The notes below the pieces were generated by a model that searched no databases, was not told where the DNA came from, and was given only the letters and a program-made list of their open reading frames with translations. This document shows positions 18,456 to 56,602 of a stretch of DNA of 64,000 nt, in pieces. Position 1 is the stretch's first letter; each line of letters begins with the position of its first letter. Location of the stretch: the NCBI RefSeq assembly GCF_036373705.1, contig NC_089857.1, positions 42,212,784 through 42,276,783 of the forward strand, written 5' to 3'. Origin of the DNA: Amia ocellicauda. Its lineage: Eukaryota > Chordata > Actinopteri > Amiiformes > Amiidae. The translations under genes and the position numbers were made by a program.

Positions 18456-25651
<7,196 letters not shown>

Positions 25652-26141: not shown

Positions 26142-27364
26142 CACTCACCTAAAGGATTATTAGGAACACCATACTAATACTGTGTTTGACCCCCTTTCGC
26201 CTTCAGAACTGCCTTAATTCTACGTGGCATTGATTCAACAAGGTGCTGAAAGCATTCTTTAGAAATGTTGGCCCATATTGATAGGATAGCATCTTGCAGT
26301 TGATGGAGATTTGTGGGATGCACATCCAGGGCACGAAGCTCCCGTTCCACCACATCCCAAAGATGCTCTATTGGGTTGAGATCTGGTGACTGTGGGGGCC
26401 AGTTTAGTACAGTGAACTCATTGTCATGTTCAAGAAACCAATTTGAAATGATTGGACCTTTGTGACATGGTGCATTATCCTGCTGGAAGTAGCCATCAGA
26501 GGATGGGTACATGGTGGTCATAAAGGGATGGACATGGTCAGAAACAATGCTCAGGTAGGCCGTGGCATTTAAACGATGCCCAATTAGCACTAAGGGGCCT
26601 AAAGTGTGCCAAGAAAACATCCCCAACACCATTACACCACCACCACCAGCCTGCACAGTGGTAACAAGGCATGATGGATCCATGTTCTCATTCTGTTTAC
26701 GCCAAATTCGGACTCTACCATCTGAATGTCTCAACAGAAATCGAGACTCATCAGACCAGGCAACATTTTTCCAGTCTTCAACTGTCCAATTTTGGTGAGC
26801 TTGTGCAAATTGTAGCCTCTTTTATTCCTATTTGTAGTGGAGATGAGTGGTACCCGGTGGGGTCATCTGCTGTTGTAGCCCATCCGCCTCAAGGTTGTAC
26901 GTGTTGTGGCTTCACAAATGCTTTGCTGCATACCTCGGTTGTAACGAGTGGTTATTTCAGTCAAAGTTGCTCTTCTATCAGCTTGAATCAGTCGGCCCAT
27001 TCTCCTCTGACCTCTAGCATCAACAAGGCATTTTCGCCCACAGGACTGCCGCATACTGGATGTTTTTCCCTTTTCACACCATTCTTTGTAAACCCTAGAA
27101 ATGGCTGTGCGTGAAAATCCCAGTAACTGAGCAGATTGTGAAATACTCAGACCGGCCCGTCTGGCACCAACAACCATGCCACGCTCAAAATTGCTTAAAT
27201 CACGTTTCTTTCCCATTCAGACATTCAGTTTGGAGTTCAGGAGATTGTCTTGACCAGGACCACACCCCTAAATGCATTGAAGCAACTGCCATGTGATTGG
27301 TTGGTTAGATAATTGCATTCATGAGAAATTGAACAGGTGTTCCTAATAATCCTTTAGGTGAGTG
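26142..27364 (-). mobile_element. Tc1/mariner DD36E (Incomer-like) transposon, decayed copy
   Basis: A 1223-bp element with perfect 29-bp terminal inverted repeats (outer end CACTCACCTAAAGGATTATT) flanked by TA on both sides (26140-26141, 27365-27366). It is nearly identical to the intact copy at 55382-56602; by eye I count about 17 differences, one of them a 2-bp insertion. Its transposase gene is broken. It lies upstream of the sh2d4b start codon. Confidence 0.93.
26174..27216 (-). pseudogene. Broken Incomer-like transposase
   Basis: The frame opens at 27216 with MGKKRDLSNFERGMV and stops early at about 26863 after RRMGYNSR, where an arginine codon has become TGA. A 2-bp insertion near 26823 (cctcttttattcc against cctctttttcc in the intact copy) then shifts the frame; the catalytic part continues in a second frame at 26174-26734. 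Within this part an Arg-to-Pro change follows DNAPCHKG. The copy cannot encode an active enzyme. Confidence 0.93.

Positions 27365-29315: not shown

Positions 29316-29391
<76 letters not shown>
29316..29391 (+). repeat. (CT)n microsatellite
   Basis: About 38 pure CT units in tandem. Confidence 0.95.

Positions 29392-35804: not shown

Positions 35805-35870
<66 letters not shown>
35805..35870 (+). repeat. (AT)n microsatellite
   Basis: Thirty-three AT units in tandem. Confidence 0.95.
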
Positions 35871-40989: not shown

Positions 40990-43900
40990 GCTGCATTGAA
41001 ACATCATAGTTATTAGATTATTATTAAGATCATCAACGCTTGACATGTCTTCGTATTCATGCTGTCACAGGGTTCTGCAGAAACGGAAATGCTGACAAAA
41101 TCTCACAGACAATCTACGTGTTAATAAAAACACGATCACAGTTATTCTGAAAAATAATGGTTATGTGGTGTTAAACTGTCTTTTGTTTTCAGAGGCAGTA
41201 TCTGTCCAAAAAGATGACTGAGGTGGCATTCAGACACAGCTAAGTCACAAAGAAACGGCACCCAGATTTAGTACAAGGTTTACAGGCCATATTAATAATA
41301 CTACAGCTATCGATAAAGCTCTTTTGCATTTACCTCTGCAGAGAAGAACCACAGTCAAGCAACTCTGAGAAGACTATGGAGTTAAGTTTAAGTCATTTTT
41401 TAAAGAGGGTCTCAATTCATCTGTACAATGCAAATAAAACAAAACCACAACTTCATCTATAACCTTCCCCTTCCCCCATTTTCCTTTCCACCCCTAATTT
41501 ACAAAGGGTACAAAAATAACACAAGGCAAAATGCACCAAAAGAAAAACCTCTTAATGCAGTGAGAAATTAGACAAGTAAAGGGGCTGGTGGGGGAGGTTG
41601 GGGGGTGGTCGGTTGTGCAGTGTTGCGGTCCTGCTGGTTTTGGGTTTCCCCCACCGTAAGAGGAGACAGAAACTGTTTGAATGTGAAAACTCCCAGGCAA
41701 GGTAGCTCTTCCTGTTAGCCCTGAGCGCATTAGAGGGTCTGCGATGCTGGCTGGCTGCTCGGCTCTGTGCGAGACCCCCACTCCGAGGCAGCACATGTGG
41801 AAGAAATGAGTGAGGAAATGGCAAGGGGGAAGAGAGCCGTTAATGAACAACTGTGGGGACTCCTGTGCCTGTCGGCTCATTTTCAGCCCGGGAGAGACGG
41901 GCAGCAGGAGGACGGCAGCAGGATCTGGGACAGTGGAGCCCTGTGATTCAGTTCCACACACTCTCGAGCGCGTGCAGGGCTGTCGGTGAGTGTGTGTGTG
42001 TGTGCTTTTACAATATGGTCTGGCAGAACGGCTTTTGCAGCAGTTACTGGTAGCTTCTGAGATATGCAACCTTTTTTCCTTTCCCTACTACAACAACAAC
42101 AAGAGCAACAAAATCCACACATTTGCTTTTGCTGAAGAGATTTCCTCAGTATGGTAAGTTCTTTCATCCGGCGGAGCTGTTGCCGGTGGTGAGGGCATGC
42201 ATAGCAGAAACCAAGAGCTGAGTGGGAGCAGTGTTTTATTAGCAGAGACCTGCGTCTGTGTTTGGAAAGCCATTAATGTTATAAATGTGCAGTCTGCCTT
42301 GTGACTTGTTGAGTCCAGACCCACACAGCGCTCCCAAAGACCTGCTGTGGAGGCTTTCACTGAAGCAGGCAGTTGGCTGGCCAAGATAAGGAGTGTATTT
42401 TGTAGCCTTCTTTTACAGGTACTGTAAACTACTTTACACAGGGTTTACTGGAAGGTCACTGCGTCGTGGTCTGTCTGTTGGGAGGTACATGCTTGCATCA
42501 GAGGTAGCGGACTGAGACTATAGACACCTGAAATGTCGAAGGGAGATCTTAATAGTCTCAGGTTAGATATTGAGTGTCTGGAAAGATTTGCTTGATCATT
42601 TTCCATTGATGGGGGCAGATTAGGTCAGATCTGTTTGGTGAAAACATACATTACAGTACAAGATTTGTGCATGTGTGATTATTGTGGAGCATTATTCAAT
42701 TATCTTATTGTTTTGCTGCACCTGTGGTGGACATTCTGACAATATTCCAGTTTACTCTGGAAAGATCGTTTTACACAGATTGTCCTGAATCGTCATCATC
42801 ATAAGATAATGCAAGCATGAATATATTTACCTTGGCACATTCATTCATTCGTATCATATATTATTATGAAATAAAATCCCCCAGGTAGCCAGACCATGCT
42901 GAGTGCAGTATTCCCCCACTACAGAGGCTTGCATACTGCAAACAGCAAGAGAACAGTATAAAGAGACAGTCACCTGCTGACCAGAGTCTTCCACAAAGCT
43001 CTCCGCTTCGGCTGCCCGGAGAGGGCAATCTCACTCCCCCACTCTCTCATCACGGTGGGTTAGGGCCGGCAGAGTGCCTGTCACCTCAGAAAACAGCATC
43101 ACATGGTGTGTGTGAGACAGTTTAGAAAGCCTTTCGCAACGCCTTGTCCTTTGTATACACTTCGACCAGAAAATATATCATTTTGAAAAGAGATCAACTT
43201 CATTTCACCTCTGTACATCACAGTGCTCGGTGTCTCGATCAAGTGTAAGCAGTCGTATTGTATTCGAGTTCTTCAGATATCTGCGGTCATACGTTCGTGT
43301 TTGGCTTTTCTCTGGGTGTCTTTAAAGGCGGTTCGCCGCTCCAGCCTGTGTGACTCCTAGCAGAGGGGTGGTCCGTTTTACTGCAGCTGCAGCTGTTTTG
43401 CTTTGCCTGTTCACGGTCATGCCGCCCGCATGGCTGCCAAGACAATGCTTTTTCAGAGTGAATTAAACAGTCAGTGCTGCTATTTTTACGAGCCCCACTG
43501 CTGAACGAGGTAAAGGTGATTGGAGCTGAACAGAAACTGATGTGCCCCTTGGCTGTGCAGATGACATAATTTCCTTTTTCAATTTTTCGTTTTGCGTTCT
43601 GCACAGGGTCTGTAAATGTTTTGCTAATCAGTGTTTATAGCTGTTTTCCCCCCCCCTTTGAGCTGCGGATGTTACCTAAACAACAGTCAACTTTCTGCAA
43701 CTGTAGTAAACTATTCCACCACAGTCATCTCTGCTTCAAAAGCATCCCATGAACTCAGTGTTCAGCACTATAAGTTGCCGCTGAGGGCTCTGCCTTGTGC
43801 TGCAGGTCATAATTAAAGGCTTGTTTAATATCAAACATCCTCCCATACCTGGAGTACTACGGATATCTGTCTCTCAAGTGTGTCCTTATGATAAAGTGCT

Positions 43901-44456
43901 CAATATCCCGAGTGACCAAGGTATAAATAAGTTGGCCTGGGCTGACATACAGATGTTGAATCTGATCATGTCTGCTTTGAAATGAGTTTGTTAAGTAGAT
44001 ACATGATCTGTATTTTTCACGGAGGCCTGGCAGCATGGAGACATGGCATGACCACACACGACAGACATGTGAAGCATGATGGGATGCAGGTTTCCATGTA
44101 GTGAGCTCTGGTTGTGTATTGTATATTTTGGCGAATGTAGCAAGCCATCCGGGCACTTTACCACGCTGCATAGTCATATACTACGTCCAGTTTGCACACT
44201 GCATACTCCTGAAATGTTGGAATGTAGTACGTGTAGTATGGTAGTATGCAGTTTCAAATATAGCCTAAGACTTTCACATTTTAGTTTTACAGCTGGTAAC
44301 TTAAAATGTATTGATTCCTCAAAATATTGAATCCACAGAACATTCCAGAGTCTGGAGAGGAGTGTTAAAATCATCCAGCTAATCATGTAATTAGACTGAT
44401 TAAGGGGCCAAGAGCTGGGCTGGAACAAAGACCAGGAGACACCCCGGCCCCCCAGG

Positions 44457-47400
44457 ACAGACAGCCCTGCTACAGACAGACAGCAGTGTTTCAGACACAG
44501 ACAGACAGACAGCCCTGCTACAGACAGACAGCAGTGTTTCAGACACAGACAGACAGACAGCCCTGCTACAGACAGACAGCAGTGTTTCAGACACAGACAG
44601 CCCTGCTACAGACAGACAGCAGTGTTTCAGACAGACAGACAGCCCTGTTACAGACAGACAGAGAGCAGTGCTACAGACAGACAGTAGTGTTTCAGACAGA
44701 CAGCCCTGCTACAGACAGACAGCAGTGTTTCAGACAGACAGACAGCCCTGTTTCAGACAGACAGAGAGCAGTGCTACAGACAGACAGTAGTGTTTCAGAC
44801 AGACAGCCCTGCTACAGACAGACAGCAGTGTTTCACACAGACAGACAGACAGCCCTGCTACAGACAGACAGCAGTGTTTCAGACAGACAGACAGCCCTGT
44901 TTCAGACAGACAGAGAGCAGTGCTACAGACAGACAGTAGTGTTTCAGACAGACAGCCCTGCTACAGACAGACAGCAGTGTTTCACACAGACAGACAGACA
45001 GCCCTGCTACAGACAGACAGCAGTGTTTCAGACAGACAGACAGACAGCCCTGCTACAGACAGACAGCAGTGTTTCAGACAGACAGACAGACAGCCCTGCT
45101 ACAGACAGACAGCAGTGTTTCAGACAGACAGACAGACAGCCCTGCTACAGACAGACAGCAGTGTTTCAGACAGACAGACAGCCCTGCTACAGACAGACAG
45201 CAGTGTTTCAGACAGACAGACAGCAGTGCTACAGACAGACAGCAGTGTTTCAGACAGACAGCAGTGTTTCAGACAGACAGACAGACAGCAGTGTTTCAGA
45301 CAGACAGACAGCCCTGCTACAGACAGACAGCAGTGTTTCAGACAGACAGACAGCCCTGCTACAGACGGACAGCAGTGTTTCAGACAGACAGACAGCCCTG
45401 CTACAGACAGACAGCAGTGTTTCAGACAGACAGACAGACAGCCCTGCTACAGACAGACAGACAGCCCTGCTACAGACAGACAGCAGTGTTTCAGACAGAC
45501 AGACAGCCCTGCTACAGACATACAGCAGTGCTACAGACAGCAGTGTTTCAGACAGACAGACAGCCCTGCTACAGACAGACAGCAGTGTTTCAGACAGACA
45601 GCAGTGTTTCAGACAGACAGACAGCCCTGCTACAGACATACAGCAGTGCTACAGACAGCAGTGTTTCAGACAGACAGCCCTGCTACAGACAGACAGCCCT
45701 GCTACAGACATACAGCAGTGCTACAGACAGCAGTGTTTCAGACAGACAGACAGCCCTGCTACAGACAGACAGCAGTGTTTCAGACAGACAGACAGCCCTG
45801 CTACAGACAGACAGCAGTGTTTCAGACAGACAGCAGTGTTTCAGACAGACAGACAGCCCTGCTACAGACATACAGCAGTGTTTCAGACAGACAGACAGCA
45901 GTGTTTCAGACAGACAGCCCTGTTACAGACAGACAGCCAGCAGTGTTTCAGACAGACAGACAGCCCTGCTACAGACAGACAGCAGTGTTTCAGACAGACA
46001 GACAGCCCTGCTACAGACAGACAGCAGTGTTTCAGACAGACAGAGAGCAGTGCTACAGACAGACAGCAGTGTTTCAGACAGACAGACAGCCCTGCTACAG
46101 ACAGACAGCAGTGTTTCAGACAGACAGACAGCCCTGCTACAGACAGACAGCAGTGTTTCAGACAGACAGCCCTGTTACAGACAGACAGCCAGCAGTGTTT
46201 CAGACAGACAGACAGCCCTGCTACAGACAGACAGCAGTGTTTCAGACAGACAGACAGCCCTGCTACAGACAGACAGCAGTGTTTCAGACAGACAGAGAGC
46301 AGTGCTACAGACAGACAGCAGTGTTTCAGACAGACAGACAGCCCTGCTACAGACAGACAGCAGTGTTTCAGACAGACAGACAGCCCTGCTACAGACAGAC
46401 AGCAGTGTTTCAGACAGACAGAGAGCAGTGCTACAGACAGCAGTGTTTCAGACAGACAGCAGTGCTACAGACAGACAGACAGACAGCAGTGTTTCAGACA
46501 GACAGACAGCCCTGCTACAGACAGACAGCAGTGTTTCAGACAGACAGACAGCCCTGCTACAGACGGACAGCAGTGTTTCAGACAGACAGACAGCCCTGCT
46601 ACAGACAGACAGCAGTGTTTCAGACAGACAGACAGACAGCCCTGCTACAGACAGACAGACAGCCCTGCTACAGACAGACAGCAGTGTTTCAGACAGACAG
46701 ACAGCCCTGCTACAGACATACAGCAGTGCTACAGACAGCAGTGTTTCAGACAGACAGACAGCCCTGCTACAGACAGACAGCAGTGTTTCAGACAGACAGA
46801 CAGCCCTGCTACAGACAGACAGCAGTGTTTCAGACAGACAGCAGTGTTTCAGACAGACAGACAGCCCTGCTACAGACATACAGCAGTGTTTCAGACAGAC
46901 AGACAGCAGTGTTTCAGACAGACAGCCCTGTTACAGACAGACAGCCAGCAGTGTTTCAGACAGACAGACAGCCCTGCTACAGACAGACAGCAGTGTTTCA
47001 GACAGACAGACAGCCCTGCTACAGACAGACAGCAGTGTTTCAGACAGACAGAGAGCAGTGCTACAGACAGACAGAGAGCAGTGCTACAGACAGACAGCAG
47101 TGTTTCAGACAGACAGACAGCCCTGCTACAGACAGACAGCAGTGTTTCAGACAGACAGACAGCCCTGCTACAGACAGACAGCAGTGTTTCAGACAGACAG
47201 ACAGCCCTGCTACAGACAGACAGCAGTGTTTCAGACAGACAGAGAGCAGTGCTACAGACAGACAGCAGTGTTTCAGACAGACAGACAGCCCTGCTACAGA
47301 GAGACAGCCCTGCTACAGACAGACAGCAGTGTTTCAGACAGACAGAGAGCAGTGCTACAGACAGCAGTGTTTCAGACAGACAGCAGTGCTACAGACAGAC

Positions 47401-50400
47401 AGACAGACAGCAGTGTTTCAGACAGACAGACAGCCCTGCTACAGACAGACAGCAGTGTTTCAGACAGACAGACAGCCCTGCTACAGACGGACAGCAGTGT
47501 TTCAGACAGACAGACAGCCCTGCTACAGACAGACAGCAGTGTTTCAGACAGACAGACAGACAGCCCTGCTACAGACAGACAGACAGCCCTGCTACAGACA
47601 GACAGCAGTGTTTCAGACAGACAGACAGCCCTGCTACAGACATACAGCAGTGCTACAGACAGCAGTGTTTCAGACAGACAGACAGCCCTGCTACAGACAG
47701 ACAGCAGTGTTTCAGACAGACAGCAGTGTTTCAGACAGACAGACAGCCCTGCTACAGACATACAGCAGTGCTACAGACAGCAGTGTTTCAGACAGACAGC
47801 CCTGCTACAGACAGACAGCCCTGCTACAGACATACAGCAGTGCTACAGACAGCAGTGTTTCAGACAGACAGACAGCCCTGCTACAGACAGACAGCAGTGT
47901 TTCAGACAGACAGACAGCCCTGCTACAGACAGACAGCAGTGTTTCAGACAGACAGCAGTGTTTCAGACAGACAGACAGCCCTGCTACAGACAGACAGCAG
48001 TGTTTCAGACAGACAGACAGCCCTGCTACAGACATACAGCAGTGCTACAGACAGCAGTGTTTCAGACAGACAGACAGCCCTGCTACAGACAGACAGCAGT
48101 GTTTCAGACAGACAGCAGTGTTTCAGACAGACAGACAGCCCTGCTACAGACATACAGCAGTGCTACAGACAGCAGTGTTTCAGACAGACAGCCCTGCTAC
48201 AGACAGACAGCCCTGCTACAGACATACAGCAGTGCTACAGACAGCAGTGTTTCAGACAGACAGACAGCCCTGCTACAGACAGACAGCAGTGTTTCAGACA
48301 GACAGACAGCCCTGCTACAGACAGACAGCAGTGTTTCAGACAGACAGTAGTGTTTCAGACAGACAGACAGCCCTGCTACAGACATACAGCAGTGTTTCAG
48401 ACAGACAGACAGCAGTGTTTCAGACAGACAGCCCTGTTACAGACAGACAGCCAGCAGTGTTTCAGACAGACAGACAGCCCTGCTACAGACAGACAGCAGT
48501 GTTTCAGACAGACAGACAGCCCTGCTACAGACAGACAGCAGTGTTTCAGACAGACAGAGAGCAGTGCTACAGACAGACAGCAGTGTTTCAGACAGACAGA
48601 CAGCCCTGCTACAGACAGACAGCAGTGTTTCAGACAGACAGACAGCCCTGCTACAGACAGACAGCAGTGTTTCAGACAGACAGCCCTGTTACAGACAGAC
48701 AGCCAGCAGTGTTTCAGACAGACAGACAGCCCTGCTACAGACAGACAGCAGTGTTTCAGACAGACAGACAGCCCTGCTACAGACAGACAGCAGTGTTTCA
48801 GACAGACAGAGAGCAGTGCTACAGACAGACAGCAGTGTTTCAGACAGACAGACAGCCCTGCTACAGACAGACAGCAGTGTTTCAGACAGACAGACAGCCC
48901 TGCTACAGACAGACAGCAGTGTTTCAGACAGACAGAGAGCAGTGCTACAGACAGCAGTGTTTCAGACAGACAGCAGTGCTACAGACAGACAGACAGCAGT
49001 GCTACTCTCAGACAGCAGTGATTCAGACAGACAGGCGTGCTACAGGCAGACAGATAGCAGTGCTACAGACAGACAGACAGACAGCAGTGCTACAGACAGA
49101 CAGCAGTGTTTCAGACAGACAGACAGCCCTGCTACAGACAGACAGACAGATAGCAGTGCTCCAGACAGACAGCAGTGTTTCAGACAGACAGACAGCCCTG
49201 CTACAGACAGACAGCAGTGTTTCAGACAGACAGACAGCCCTGCTACAGACAGACAGTAGTGTTTCAGACAGACAGAGAGCAGTGCTACAGACGGACAGCA
49301 GTGTTTCAGACAGACAGCAGTGTTTCAGACAGACAGACAGCAGTGTTTCAGGCAGACAGAGAGCAGTGCTACAGACGGACAGCAGTGTTTCAGACAGACA
49401 GACAGCCCTGCTACAGACAGACAGCAGTGTTTCAGACAGACAGACAGACAGCCCTGTTACAGACAGACAGCAGTGTTTCAGACAGACAGAGAGCAGTGCT
49501 ACAGACAGACAGTAGTGTTTCAGACAGACAGACAGCCCTGTTACAGACAGACAGCAGTGCTACAGACAGACAGTAGTGTTTCAGACAGACAGCAGTGCTA
49601 CAGACAGACAGCAGTGTTTCAGACAGACAGACAGCCCTGCTACAGACAGACAGCAGTGTTTCAGACAGACAGACAGCCCTGCTACAGACAGACAGCAGTG
49701 TTTCAGACAGACAGAGAGCAGTGCTACAGACAGACAGCAGTGTTTCAGACAGACAGACAGCCCTGCTACAGACAGACAGCAGTGTTTCAGACAGACAGAC
49801 AGCCCTGCTACAGACAGACAGCAGTGTTTCAGACAGACAGAGAGCAGTGCTACAGACAGCAGTGTTTCAGACAGACAGCAGTGCTACAGACAGACAGACA
49901 GCAGTGCTACTCTCAGACAGCAGTGATTCAGACAGACAGGCGTGCTACAGGCAGACAGATAGCAGTGCTACAGACAGACAGACAGACAGCAGTGCTACAG
50001 ACAGACAGCAGTGTTTCAGACAGACAGACAGCCCTGCTACAGACAGACAGACAGATAGCAGTGCTACAGACAGACAGCAGTGTTTCAGACAGACAGACAG
50101 CCCTGCTACAGACAGACAGCAGTGTTTCAGACAGACAGACAGCCCTGCTACAGACAGACAGCAGTGTTTCAGACAGACAGACAGCCCTGCTACAGACAGA
50201 CAGTAGTGTTTCAGACAGACAGAGAGCAGTGCTACAGACGGACAGCAGTGTTTCAGACAGACAGACAGCCCTGTTACAGACAGACAGCAGTGTTTCAGAC
50301 AGACAGACAGCAGTGTTTCAGGCAGACAGAGAGCAGTGCTACAGACGGACAGCAGTGTTTCAGACAGACAGACAGACAGCCCTGTTACAGACAGACAGCA

Positions 50401-50938
50401 GTGTTTCAGACAGACAGAGAGCAGTGCTACAGACAGACAGTAGTGTTTCAGACAGACAGACAGCCCTGTTACAGACAGACAGCAGTGCTACAGACAGACA
50501 GTAGTGTTTCAGACAGACAGCAGTGCTACAGACAGACAGCAGTGTTTCAGACAGACAGACAGCCCTGCTACAGACAGACAGTAGTGTTTCAGACAGACAG
50601 AGAGCAGTGCTACAGACAGACAGTAGTGTTTCAGACAGACAGACAGCCCTGTTACAGACAGACAGCAGTGCTACAGACAGACAGTAGTGTTTCAGACAGA
50701 CAGCAGTGCTACAGACAGACAGCAGTGTTTCAGACAGACAGACAGCCCTGCTACAGACAGACAGTAGTGTTTCAGACAGACAGAGAGCAGTGCTACAGAC
50801 AGACAGTAGTGTTTCAGACAGACAGCAGTGCTACAGATAGACAGACAGCAGTGCTACAGACAGACAGACAGCAGTGCTACAGACAGAGAGCAGTGTAACA
50901 AACAGACAACAGCGCTACAGACAGACAGACAGCCCTGA
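44457..50938 (+). repeat. CAGA-rich minisatellite array, about 6.5 kb, with higher-order structure
   Basis: The basic monomer is CAGTG(TTT or CTA)CAGACAGACAG, 19 bp, or 23 bp with one more CAGA; a variant begins CCCTG. Alternation of CAGTGTTTC and CCCTGCTAC monomers gives a 42-bp dimer, repeated roughly 150 times. Rare variants recur at fixed distances: the CGG variant at 45366, 46564 and 47488 (1198 and 924 bp apart), and a CTACTCTCAGACAG variant with its 'tctca' at 49006 and 49911 (905 bp apart), showing duplication of kilobase blocks. Edge units are degenerate: CAGACACAGACAG at 44490-44600, GTAACAAACAG and CAACAGCGC near 50893-50915. Because 42 is a multiple of three and the consensus has no stop in any forward frame, all three frames stay open over 45069-48350. 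I consider the resulting 14-residue repeat proteins (SVSDRQTALLQTDS and its frame variants) an accident of composition. Confidence 0.97.
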
Positions 50939-52285
50939 GAGAAGGAGGATTCTTATAGCCTCCATCTTTTCAAGGCCGGCAGTGACTTCAGAATGACTCC
51001 ATTACCATGTCTGAGTGAAGGTCTGCTCTGAGTGAACTGTGTTGTTTCCACTGTGTAAATATTAGTGCCCTGCCTCCTCCAGAGGTCAGCCTGTCCGTGG
51101 CCATTGCGGTATTGTGGTGGCTGTCGTGGGCGCAGGAACACTGTCTGGAGTTTACTGGGAAGAATGTGCTTGCTTATCTTTCTTTTTTTTTGGATGCTTG
51201 AAAACCCACAGACTAAGGAGGCTGACAATATCGAAGAATTATCACACTAGAAGCCCTTTATTACTGCAACAGAAAACATTGATAGTCTTATACCAACATA
51301 ACCAACTGGCCAAGGCATGAAGCAATGATTGGGAGTGCAAGGGAACACTACATGATGATTGCCGTTTCCTTTTTTCTGATGTGAGACGCATTGATTTAGG
51401 ATCCCACAGGAGACTAATACTAAGCTGTAAGTCCAGTGTCACAACGGGACTTTGGACCCAGCTGGCTCCCTGCCACAGTTGGGCTGTTCTACGGAGCGCA
51501 ACCTCTGTGGATTTCTGCTAAAGAAAACAGTGTCTGTCCTAAAGACCATTATCATGCCAGAGTGACCTCAGAGCAGCGATGGCTAACACTGACAATGCAA
51601 GCTGTGCTCACTTTAGAGAAGTGGCAACAACAGCCAGCATTGCACAGCACTGCGGGCTGAGAATTCCTCATCTCAATAAGTATAGATCGCTATCTTGCAA
51701 AACTGTAAACTACAGAGTTGCTGTGAATCTCCTGCTTGCTATGCGAGAAAGGTGATCACATTTCTGAACAAAATCTCTCCCCATTACAGACCTTCTAGTG
51801 AATCTGCATAACTGGATTTCTGAATAACAGTTTTTGAATGATGAATCACTCAGGAAAGATGAATGTGCAATTTAAGCAACAATGTAGCAAGATTTACTGT
51901 TATATGGGAAGTTCCTACAATTTGCTTCTACTTCTATTTGATAGTTGTTACTTCATCCAAGTGATAGAATAATCTCTGTACACTGCTTTCACATTATCTC
52001 ATTGATTTCCTGTCTTCAGTATTATGAAAGTCTTATGAAAAATGTTGCTTGTTAATAGGGCGCAGTCTTGTACTGCATGTGCATTAATAAATATAAGGCT
52101 TCCCGACGTCCCCTGTACAGTGTAGAATAGTAGTTTACCGGCACATGAAAACATGAAAAAGCTTCAATTCATTTATTTGATTTAATATTAAATTGGGCTG
52201 TAATCAATTGAGTGGCTTTAAAGTTGCTGAAACACACTGCTAGGGGTGTTCAGTGCTTCAGTGATATCTAAGCCTTTGCTGTTGC

Positions 52286-52338
<53 letters not shown>

Positions 52339-55381: not shown

Positions 55382-56602
55382 CACTCACCTAAAGGATTAT
55401 TAGGAACACCATACTAATACTGTGTTTGACCCCCTTTCGCCTTCAGAACTGCCTTAATTCTACGTGCCATTGATTCAACAAGGTGCTGAAAGCATTCTTT
55501 AGAAATGTTGGCCCATATTGATAGGATAGCATCTTGCAGTTGATGGAGATTTGTGGGATGCACATCCAGGGCACGAAGCTCCCGTTCCACCACATCCCAA
55601 AGATGCTCTATTGGGTTGAGATCTGGTGACTGTGGGGGCCAGTTTAGTACAGTGAACTCATTGTCATGTTCAAGAAACCAATTTGAAATGATTCGACCTT
55701 TGTGACATGGTGCATTATCCTGCTGGAAGTAGCCATCAGAGGATGGGTACATGGTGGTCATAAAGGGATGGACATGGTCAGAAACAATGCTCAGGTAGGC
55801 CGTGGCATTTAAACGATGCCCAATTGGCACTAAGGGGCCTACAGTGTGCCAAGAAAACATCCCCCACACCATTACACCACCACCACCAGCCTGCACAGTG
55901 GTAACAAGGCATGATGGATCCATGTTCTCATTCTGTTTACGCCAAATTCTGACTCTACCATCTGAATGTCTCAACAGAAATCGAGACTCATCAGACCAGG
56001 CAACATTTTTCCAGTCTTCAACTGTCCAATTTTGATGAGCTTGTGCAAATTGTAGCCTCTTTTTCCTATTTGTAGTGGAGATGAGTGGTACCCGGTGGGC
56101 TCTTCTGCTGTTGTAGCCCATCCGCCTCAAGGTTGTACGTGTTGTGGCTTCACAAATGCTTTGCTGCATACCTCGGTTGTAACGAGTGGTTATTTCAGTC
56201 AAAGTTGCTCTTCTATCAGCTTGAATCAGTCGGCCCATTCTCCTCTGACCTCTAGCATCAACAAGGCATTTTCGCCCACAGGACTGCCGCATACTGGATG
56301 TTTTTCCCTTTTCACACCATTCTTTGTAAACCCTAGAAATGGTTGTGCGTGAAAATCCCAGTAACTGAGCAGATTGTGAAATACTCAGACCAGTCTGTCT
56401 GGCACCAACAACCATGCCACGCTCAAAATTGCTTAAATCACCTTTCTTTCCCATTCAGACATTCAGTTTGGACTTCAGGAGATTGTCTTGACCAGGACCA
56501 CACCCCTAAATGCATTGAAGCAACTGCCATGTGATTGGTTGGTTAGATAATTGCATTAATGAGAAATTGAACAGGTGTTCCTAATAATCCTTTAGGTGAG
56601 TG
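55382..56602 (-). mobile_element. Tc1/mariner DD36E (Incomer-like) transposon, apparently intact
   Basis: A 1221-bp element with perfect 29-bp terminal inverted repeats, flanked by TA target duplications at 55380-55381 and 56603-56604. It carries an uninterrupted transposase gene. Near-identity with the copy at 26142-27364 (about 17 differences by eye) indicates recent transposition in this lineage. Confidence 0.97.
55414..56454 (-). CDS. Tc1/mariner transposase, DD36E catalytic triad, 346 aa
   Basis: The enzyme cuts and pastes the element into TA sites. It has an N-terminal paired-type DNA-binding region with helix-turn-helix character (residues 1-120; ISQSAQLLGFSRTTISRVYKE). The catalytic domain follows: WSDESRF (Asp155), FQQDNAPCHK (Asp246) and SPDLNPIEHLWD (Glu283). 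There are 36 residues between the second Asp and Glu, against 34 in Sleeping Beauty-type Tc1 enzymes; DD36E is the hallmark of the Incomer family described from fish and mammals. Length (346) and 1.2-kb element size fit that family. No stop or frameshift is present, all three catalytic residues are intact and the inverted repeats are perfect, so the copy may still be functional. It opens at MGKKGDLSNFERGMV and ends KAKGGQTQY. Confidence 0.95.
   Translation of the reverse strand: MGKKGDLSNFERGMVVGARQTGLSISQSAQLLGFSRTTISRVYKEWCEKGKTSSMRQSCGRKCLVDARGQRRMGRLIQADRRATLTEITTRYNRGMQQSICEATTRTTLRRMGYNSRRAHRVPLISTTNRKKRLQFAQAHQNWTVEDWKNVAWSDESRFLLRHSDGRVRIWRKQNENMDPSCLVTTVQAGGGGVMVWGMFSWHTVGPLVPIGHRLNATAYLSIVSDHVHPFMTTMYPSSDGYFQQDNAPCHKGRIISNWFLEHDNEFTVLNWPPQSPDLNPIEHLWDVVERELRALDVHPTNLHQLQDAILSIWANISKECFQHLVESMARRIKAVLKAKGGQTQY

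Follow-up and report, generated by a model that had tools for sequence, protein, structure and literature searches.

A CAGA-core minisatellite at a single locus, probably seeded by the end of a hAT-like MITE and carrying nested block copies

The window analyzed here, a stretch of 64,000 nucleotides, spans positions 42212784-42276783 of contig C8 in a 988-Mb, 385-contig assembly and contains a long tandem array together with an SH2-domain exon, transposase sequences, two truncated inverted-repeat elements, and simple repeats (Table 1). The SH2 exon is presumably part of an SH2D4-like gene. SH2D4-like motifs near 20733 and 25084 suggest that there are more exons; the open reading frame at 24776-25186 gave no Pfam or PDB match, and the stretch 20626-20880 gave no Pfam match. 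Three pure dinucleotide runs were reported by Tandem Repeats Finder. The two ends of C8 carry 15 and 16 telomere-type hexamers, in each case confined to one strand; the contig therefore probably comes close to the chromosome end on both sides. The array lies about 3.3 Mb from the right end, and the window locus lies at about 7% of the contig. Among eight contig ends inspected, one-strand hexamers were present at both ends of C8 and at one end each of C1 and C10 and were absent at one end of C7, the remaining three being wholly or largely N.

Table 1. Features of the window (positions in the window; a dot marks a feature with no strand)
Feature	Position	Strand	Description
SH2-domain exon	18979-19272	-	Pfam PF00017, E 5.2e-16; about 25 kb from the array
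Split second copy, apparently of the same transposase as at 55417-56454	26177-27216	-	DDE_3 in 26177-26821; N-terminal half, recognized by eye, in the open reading frame 26866-27216
Pure CT run	29317-29391	.	37.5 copies
Pure AT run	35805-35870	.	33 copies
Left flank past both elements	42400-44055	.	Single copy; one genome match
3' part of second dispersed inverted-repeat element	44060-44265	+	5' part absent; adjoins the MITE; alignment with 11 copies
3' part of 321-bp hAT-like MITE	44265-44458	+	Consensus 110-303, 86% identical; 5' 109 bp absent
CAGA-core minisatellite	44456-50937	+	305 units and edges; monomers of 19/23 bp paired as 42-bp dimers; about 6.5 kb
MITE-array junction	44456-44469	+	GACAGCCCTG of first unit matches MITE terminal 10-mer GACACCCCTG at 9/10; 7 inverted-repeat bases missing
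Block	45270-45870	+	Exact copy at 47392-47992, offset 2122, 601 bp
Block	45450-46482	+	Copy at 47964-48996, offset 2514; 1033 bp, one substitution (45834 versus 48348)
Block	46378-46799	+	Exact copy at 47302-47723, offset 924
Block	48704-49160	+	Exact copy at 49609-50065, offset 905
Right flank	50938-51400	.	Single copy; one genome match for 50925-51400; directly after last CAGCCCTG
Pure TC run	52287-52335	.	24.5 copies
Tc1/mariner-type transposase	55417-56454	-	Unbroken 346-aa frame; Pfam HTH_Tnp_Tc3_2, DDE_3

Tandem Repeats Finder placed the array at 44456-50933 with a period of 42 (155.2 copies) and at 44456-50928 with a period of 19, and the final CCCTG, located by eye, ends at 50937, one base beyond the interval 44456-50936 on which our array scripts were run. 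When the array was cut at each TG[CT]T[AT]CA motif and at two variants of it, 306 marks and thus 305 units of 32 types resulted, comprising 153 units of 19 bp, 116 of 23 bp, 17 of 27 bp, 14 of 15 bp, and 5 of other lengths; the most frequent type, TGCTACAGACAGACAGCAG (19 bp), occurs 78 times and the second, TGTTTCAGACAGACAGACAGCCC (23 bp), 75 times. TGCT-type units and the remaining units, nearly all of which are TGTT-type, alternate at 242 of the 304 steps, against a mean of 152.6 and a maximum of 183 in 2000 shuffles. Together with the two periods, this bears out the alternation of 19- and 23-bp monomers into a 42-bp dimer that had been described in the initial annotation. The array at 44456-50937 is real and, consisting of tandem units within the 10- to 100-bp range with interspersed variants, is a minisatellite. 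The accompanying claim of degenerate edges around a homogeneous core stands in part. Among the first 25 units, 6 are of types present in at most two copies, as are 2 of the final 5, and 9 of the 11 intermediate 25-unit bins contain 0 or 1 such units. The bins starting at 48626 and 49699, however, contain 5 and 4, since both copies of the block repeated at offset 905 include the same rare types.

The monomer appears to be local rather than dispersed, a point that had been put forward for checking: searches of the genome, in which the best candidates were scored, lead to one locus with single-copy flanks. When a 501-bp query from the array was searched against its own assembly, the 20 strongest matches (80-100%) all fell at the window locus, and matches at other loci were at 66-85%. 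Consistent with this, a 20-base word from the unit, with up to 2 mismatches allowed, was found 170 times on the forward strand and 12 times on the reverse strand of the whole genome (control, 4); 161 of these sites lie inside the array and 21 outside it, and the 5 outside sites among the matches listed are each single. Since only the best candidates were scored, a second array of the same monomer is unlikely rather than strictly excluded. A phage search with the left flank returned no match, and none of the papers listed in literature searches describes the monomer. Nine non-window loci fetched from the genome (L040 to L048) proved to be CAGA-rich arrays with other units. The closest unit is that of L048, a 183-bp array whose 20-bp unit contains ACAGACAGCAGTGC and which has no MITE, indicating that no MITE is needed for this portion of the unit to arise. 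With two further loci, on C3 and C6, set aside, 9 of 17 non-window loci with CAGA matches fell within the terminal 5% of one end or the other of their contig, where 1.7 would be expected by length; no more than nine of the loci were read as arrays.

Two truncated dispersed elements adjoin the left edge of the array. The one next to the array belongs to a MITE family for which a first look gave 430 candidates in the genome, the best 40 of which were scored and yielded 40 matches, including the window's own. Its consensus, derived from an alignment of 29 copies, is 321 bp long, begins with CAGGGGTG and ends with CACCCCTG, and has terminal inverted repeats of 56 bp that are 98% identical. Among 30 copies examined, 5 of the 19 with both ends recognized are flanked by 8-bp target duplications matching at 7 or more of the 8 bases, against 4 of 342 mismatched pairs used as a control, and the five best of these duplications have a central TA. 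A central TA in the target duplication is a habit of Buster-type hAT elements, and from the 8-bp duplication and the ends we take the family to be hAT-like. This evidence comes from other copies of the family; the window copy has no 5' end against which a target duplication could be compared, and neither CTACAGAC nor AGAGAAGG shows the central TA. The second element is likewise dispersed (178 first-look candidates, with the best 40 scored and giving 41 matching stretches, including the window's own) and may have inserted into the MITE, which it adjoins, before both lost their 5' parts.

Alignment with the consensus places the start of the array inside the 3' inverted repeat of the truncated MITE, an observation that is new and does not appear in the initial annotation. 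Homology to the MITE ends at CCCCCCAGGAC, after which the consensus continues with TGGAGTCTGACACCCCTG and the window with AGACAGCCCTG; the latter can be obtained from the former by loss of seven bases and a change at one or two others. Matches to the terminal 10-mer as good as that in the first unit, allowed anywhere within 20 bp, turned up at 121 of 200000 places drawn at random elsewhere in the window, and none of 7493 places in the nine other CAGA arrays had one. The first unit also contains CAGCCCTG, which occurs 107 times in 44456-50936 and once more ending at 50937, where it forms the last bases of the array before single-copy DNA begins; it is absent from the nine other arrays. The terminal match, the counts of CAGCCCTG, and the fact that the array ends in it together suggest that the unit probably took in the terminus of the MITE. 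The relationship does not extend to the 42-mer as a whole. Aligned locally to the inverted repeat, the 42-mer scores 10.5, against a mean of 9.3 and a maximum of 17 for shuffles, and although only 6 of 2000 letter shuffles do as well in a global alignment, 680 of 7547 CAGA controls align to the inverted repeat equally well. We therefore rejected an origin of all 42 bases by decay of the inverted repeat, and the link between unit and MITE is confined to about 10 bp. A pattern search of the genome, which allows 14 bases and so misses the window junction with its 15, found no second MITE with a CAGA array: the lone match to the junction pattern is not a MITE, and the copy on C24, whose match extends to query base 130, is a MITE that lacks an array. 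The proposed seeding event is thus a single case.

We consider it likely that the end of the MITE and its CAGA-rich flank were caught in a tandem duplication that then grew by unequal exchange or conversion into a locus-specific, probably hypervariable minisatellite. In the first step, which the junction supports but does not prove, a hAT-like MITE copy would have lost 7 bp within its 3' inverted repeat, and the terminal GACAGCCCTG together with the flank that follows (CTACAGACAGACAGCAG...) would have been caught in the first tandem duplication, which would explain why the CCC-type units carry a transposon terminus. In the second, two diverged half-units of 19 and 23 bp would have been joined into the 42-bp dimer and amplified as a pair, as the observed alternation suggests. 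That transposable elements give rise to tandem repeats is established (PMC9659126 and PMC3389668), and the mechanisms postulated for this explain only 6% of such repeats in human (PMC3389668). An alternative that is unlikely, though it retains some weight, is that the array is an ordinary CAGA microsatellite expansion and that the MITE is coincidental, having been inserted beside or into an existing array and having lost its end later. In keeping with this, the MITE abuts none of the nine CAGA arrays examined elsewhere, the 42-mer as a whole resembles generic CAGA sequence, and L048 has a similar unit with no MITE. Against it, the array starts inside the inverted repeat and not next to it, and CAGCCCTG, which is missing from the nine other arrays, is present more than 100 times here; in addition, no array is left beyond the MITE on its far side, although this part has been lost to deletion. 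Seeding by the MITE end remains the reading that we prefer.

Above the dimer, whole blocks of the array have been copied. A base-by-base self-comparison, set to report exact repeats of at least 150 bp at offsets of at least 15, identified 31 exact repeats. The offsets of 1198, 924, and 905 bp at which marker variants had been noted to recur correspond to exact repeats of 332, 422, and 457 bp, and these prove to be part of a larger nested set. The claim of block duplication is upheld, the largest pairs being those at offsets 2514 and 2122, the former of which is made up of exact repeats of 648 and 384 bp. The first 332 bp of the block at 45270-45870 are found again at 46468-46799 (offset 1198), and further exact repeats of 384 and 283 bp occur at offsets 392 and 252, respectively. 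The copies are nested: 45270-46482 comes back in part at 46468-47074 and once more inside 47392-48996, which contains an internal duplication at offset 392. At 648 bp, the longest exact repeat in the array compares with at most 204 bp in 100 arrays of shuffled units and at most 347 bp in 100 first-order Markov chains of units. The offsets (2514, 2122, 1198, 1008, 924, 905, 392, and 252) form no constant head-to-tail period. The third level is thus real but irregular, without a single period. In the third step of the proposed origin, unequal sister-chromatid exchange or gene conversion would have copied blocks over distances of 0.25-2.5 kb, and the largest copies, with one difference in 1033 bp, suggest that this activity was recent. 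It is doubtful that the kilobase blocks are in part an assembly artifact, through collapsed or doubled copies. Copies of up to 648 bp are exact, and both copy number and block order come from one assembly, as such an artifact would allow, but the window contains no N and the copies differ by one substitution and by internal rearrangement (offset 392, and 1198 versus 1008), a mosaic that simple doubling would not produce.

No function has been shown for the array, and our analysis found nothing encoded in it. Searched against Rfam, the whole window gave no family at the gathering score. Hairpins in single strands were rejected as a driver of expansion on the basis of one 126-bp stretch of the array, in which the two strands gave z values of 0.13 and 0.46. 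The array could conceivably be a cis-element or decoy for Smad proteins. It contains 698 sites for CAGAC, the classical Smad binding element, at a density of 107.7 per kb, compared with 1.51 per kb in the rest of the window, all of them on one strand and none on the other. In PMC5727232, Smad4 is reported to bind CAGAC with a Kd of 270 nM, and CAGAC to be enriched three-fold in Smad4 peaks and two-fold in Smad3 peaks. On the other hand, CAGAC clusters are reported in the same paper in only 1-6% of the Smad1, Smad3, and Smad4 peaks studied (PMC5727232), and it is largely for this reason that we regard a Smad role as very improbable. Furthermore, the CAGA core by itself would produce such a density, which is to be expected of CAGA arrays in general, and the sole confirmed gene part, the SH2 exon, is about 25 kb away. 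A more specific version, in which the 698 sites would form a transposon-born Smad cluster whose length varies among individuals and which tunes the TGF-beta response or titrates Smads near the SH2-domain gene, is a shade less probable still. We give almost no credence to a coding repeat, because, despite open frames of 1550 and 1574 aa, a dimer length divisible by 3, and a stop-poor plus strand (20 TAG, 1 TAA, and 2 TGA over all frames), that strand has no ATG, the 19/23-bp units shift the frame at the 62 nonalternating steps, and three frames are open simultaneously over long stretches.

The origin of tandem repeats is poorly explained, and this single-locus case is readable: one sequence allows a likely seed (the MITE end), a dimer stage, and a block-copy stage to be placed in order. 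The array may also serve as a variable marker. The initial annotation had likened its organization to that of centromeric satellites. Multilevel repetition is common to the array and to alpha-satellite higher-order repeats, but the likeness is not supported beyond that: the array has no periodic third level, its copies being irregular and nested, and it occupies 6.5 kb amid single-copy DNA about 3.3 Mb from the contig end. Block copying is, moreover, also seen in L041:1376-3369 (C7, 1.10 Mb), a CAGA array of 1994 bp with exact repeats of 455 bp at offset 580 and 445 bp at offset 786. Exact block repeats reach 167 bp in L044 and 178 bp in part of L045, and 27 to 141 bp in seven other stretches tested. 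Block copying is therefore not special to the window locus, but it is unequally strong among arrays. L040 to L048 share with the present array the CAGA core, longer units in most cases, and block copies, clearest in L041, but differ in having other units, no CAGCCCTG, and no abutting MITE. With other CAGA arrays having units of their own, and with the blocks in L041, the organization is ordinary for its class.

Among known minisatellites, human MSY1 and D1S80 (PMC2599865 and PMC3356730) resemble the array in that variant repeats are interspersed in blocks at one locus; unit, size, and species are different, and the array is known from one assembly. MSY1, a haploid human minisatellite, gains and loses units, with conversion as the likely process, and its mutants change 1-3 units (PMC2599865), whereas block copies in the array reach 1 kb and by this comparison would need larger exchanges than those of MSY1. 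The array belongs to a known kind: it is a locus-specific minisatellite for which a MITE end was probably the seed. In PMC9659126, the Xstir repeat of Xenopus goes back to the Xmix MITE, from whose terminal inverted repeat it is derived, and (GTCY)n repeats reside on lepidopteran MITEs. These cases share with the present array the association of a tandem repeat with a nonautonomous DNA element, at its end or in its body, but here, as far as seen, only one copy of the family is involved, and the unit probably contains no more than roughly the terminal 10 bases of the MITE.
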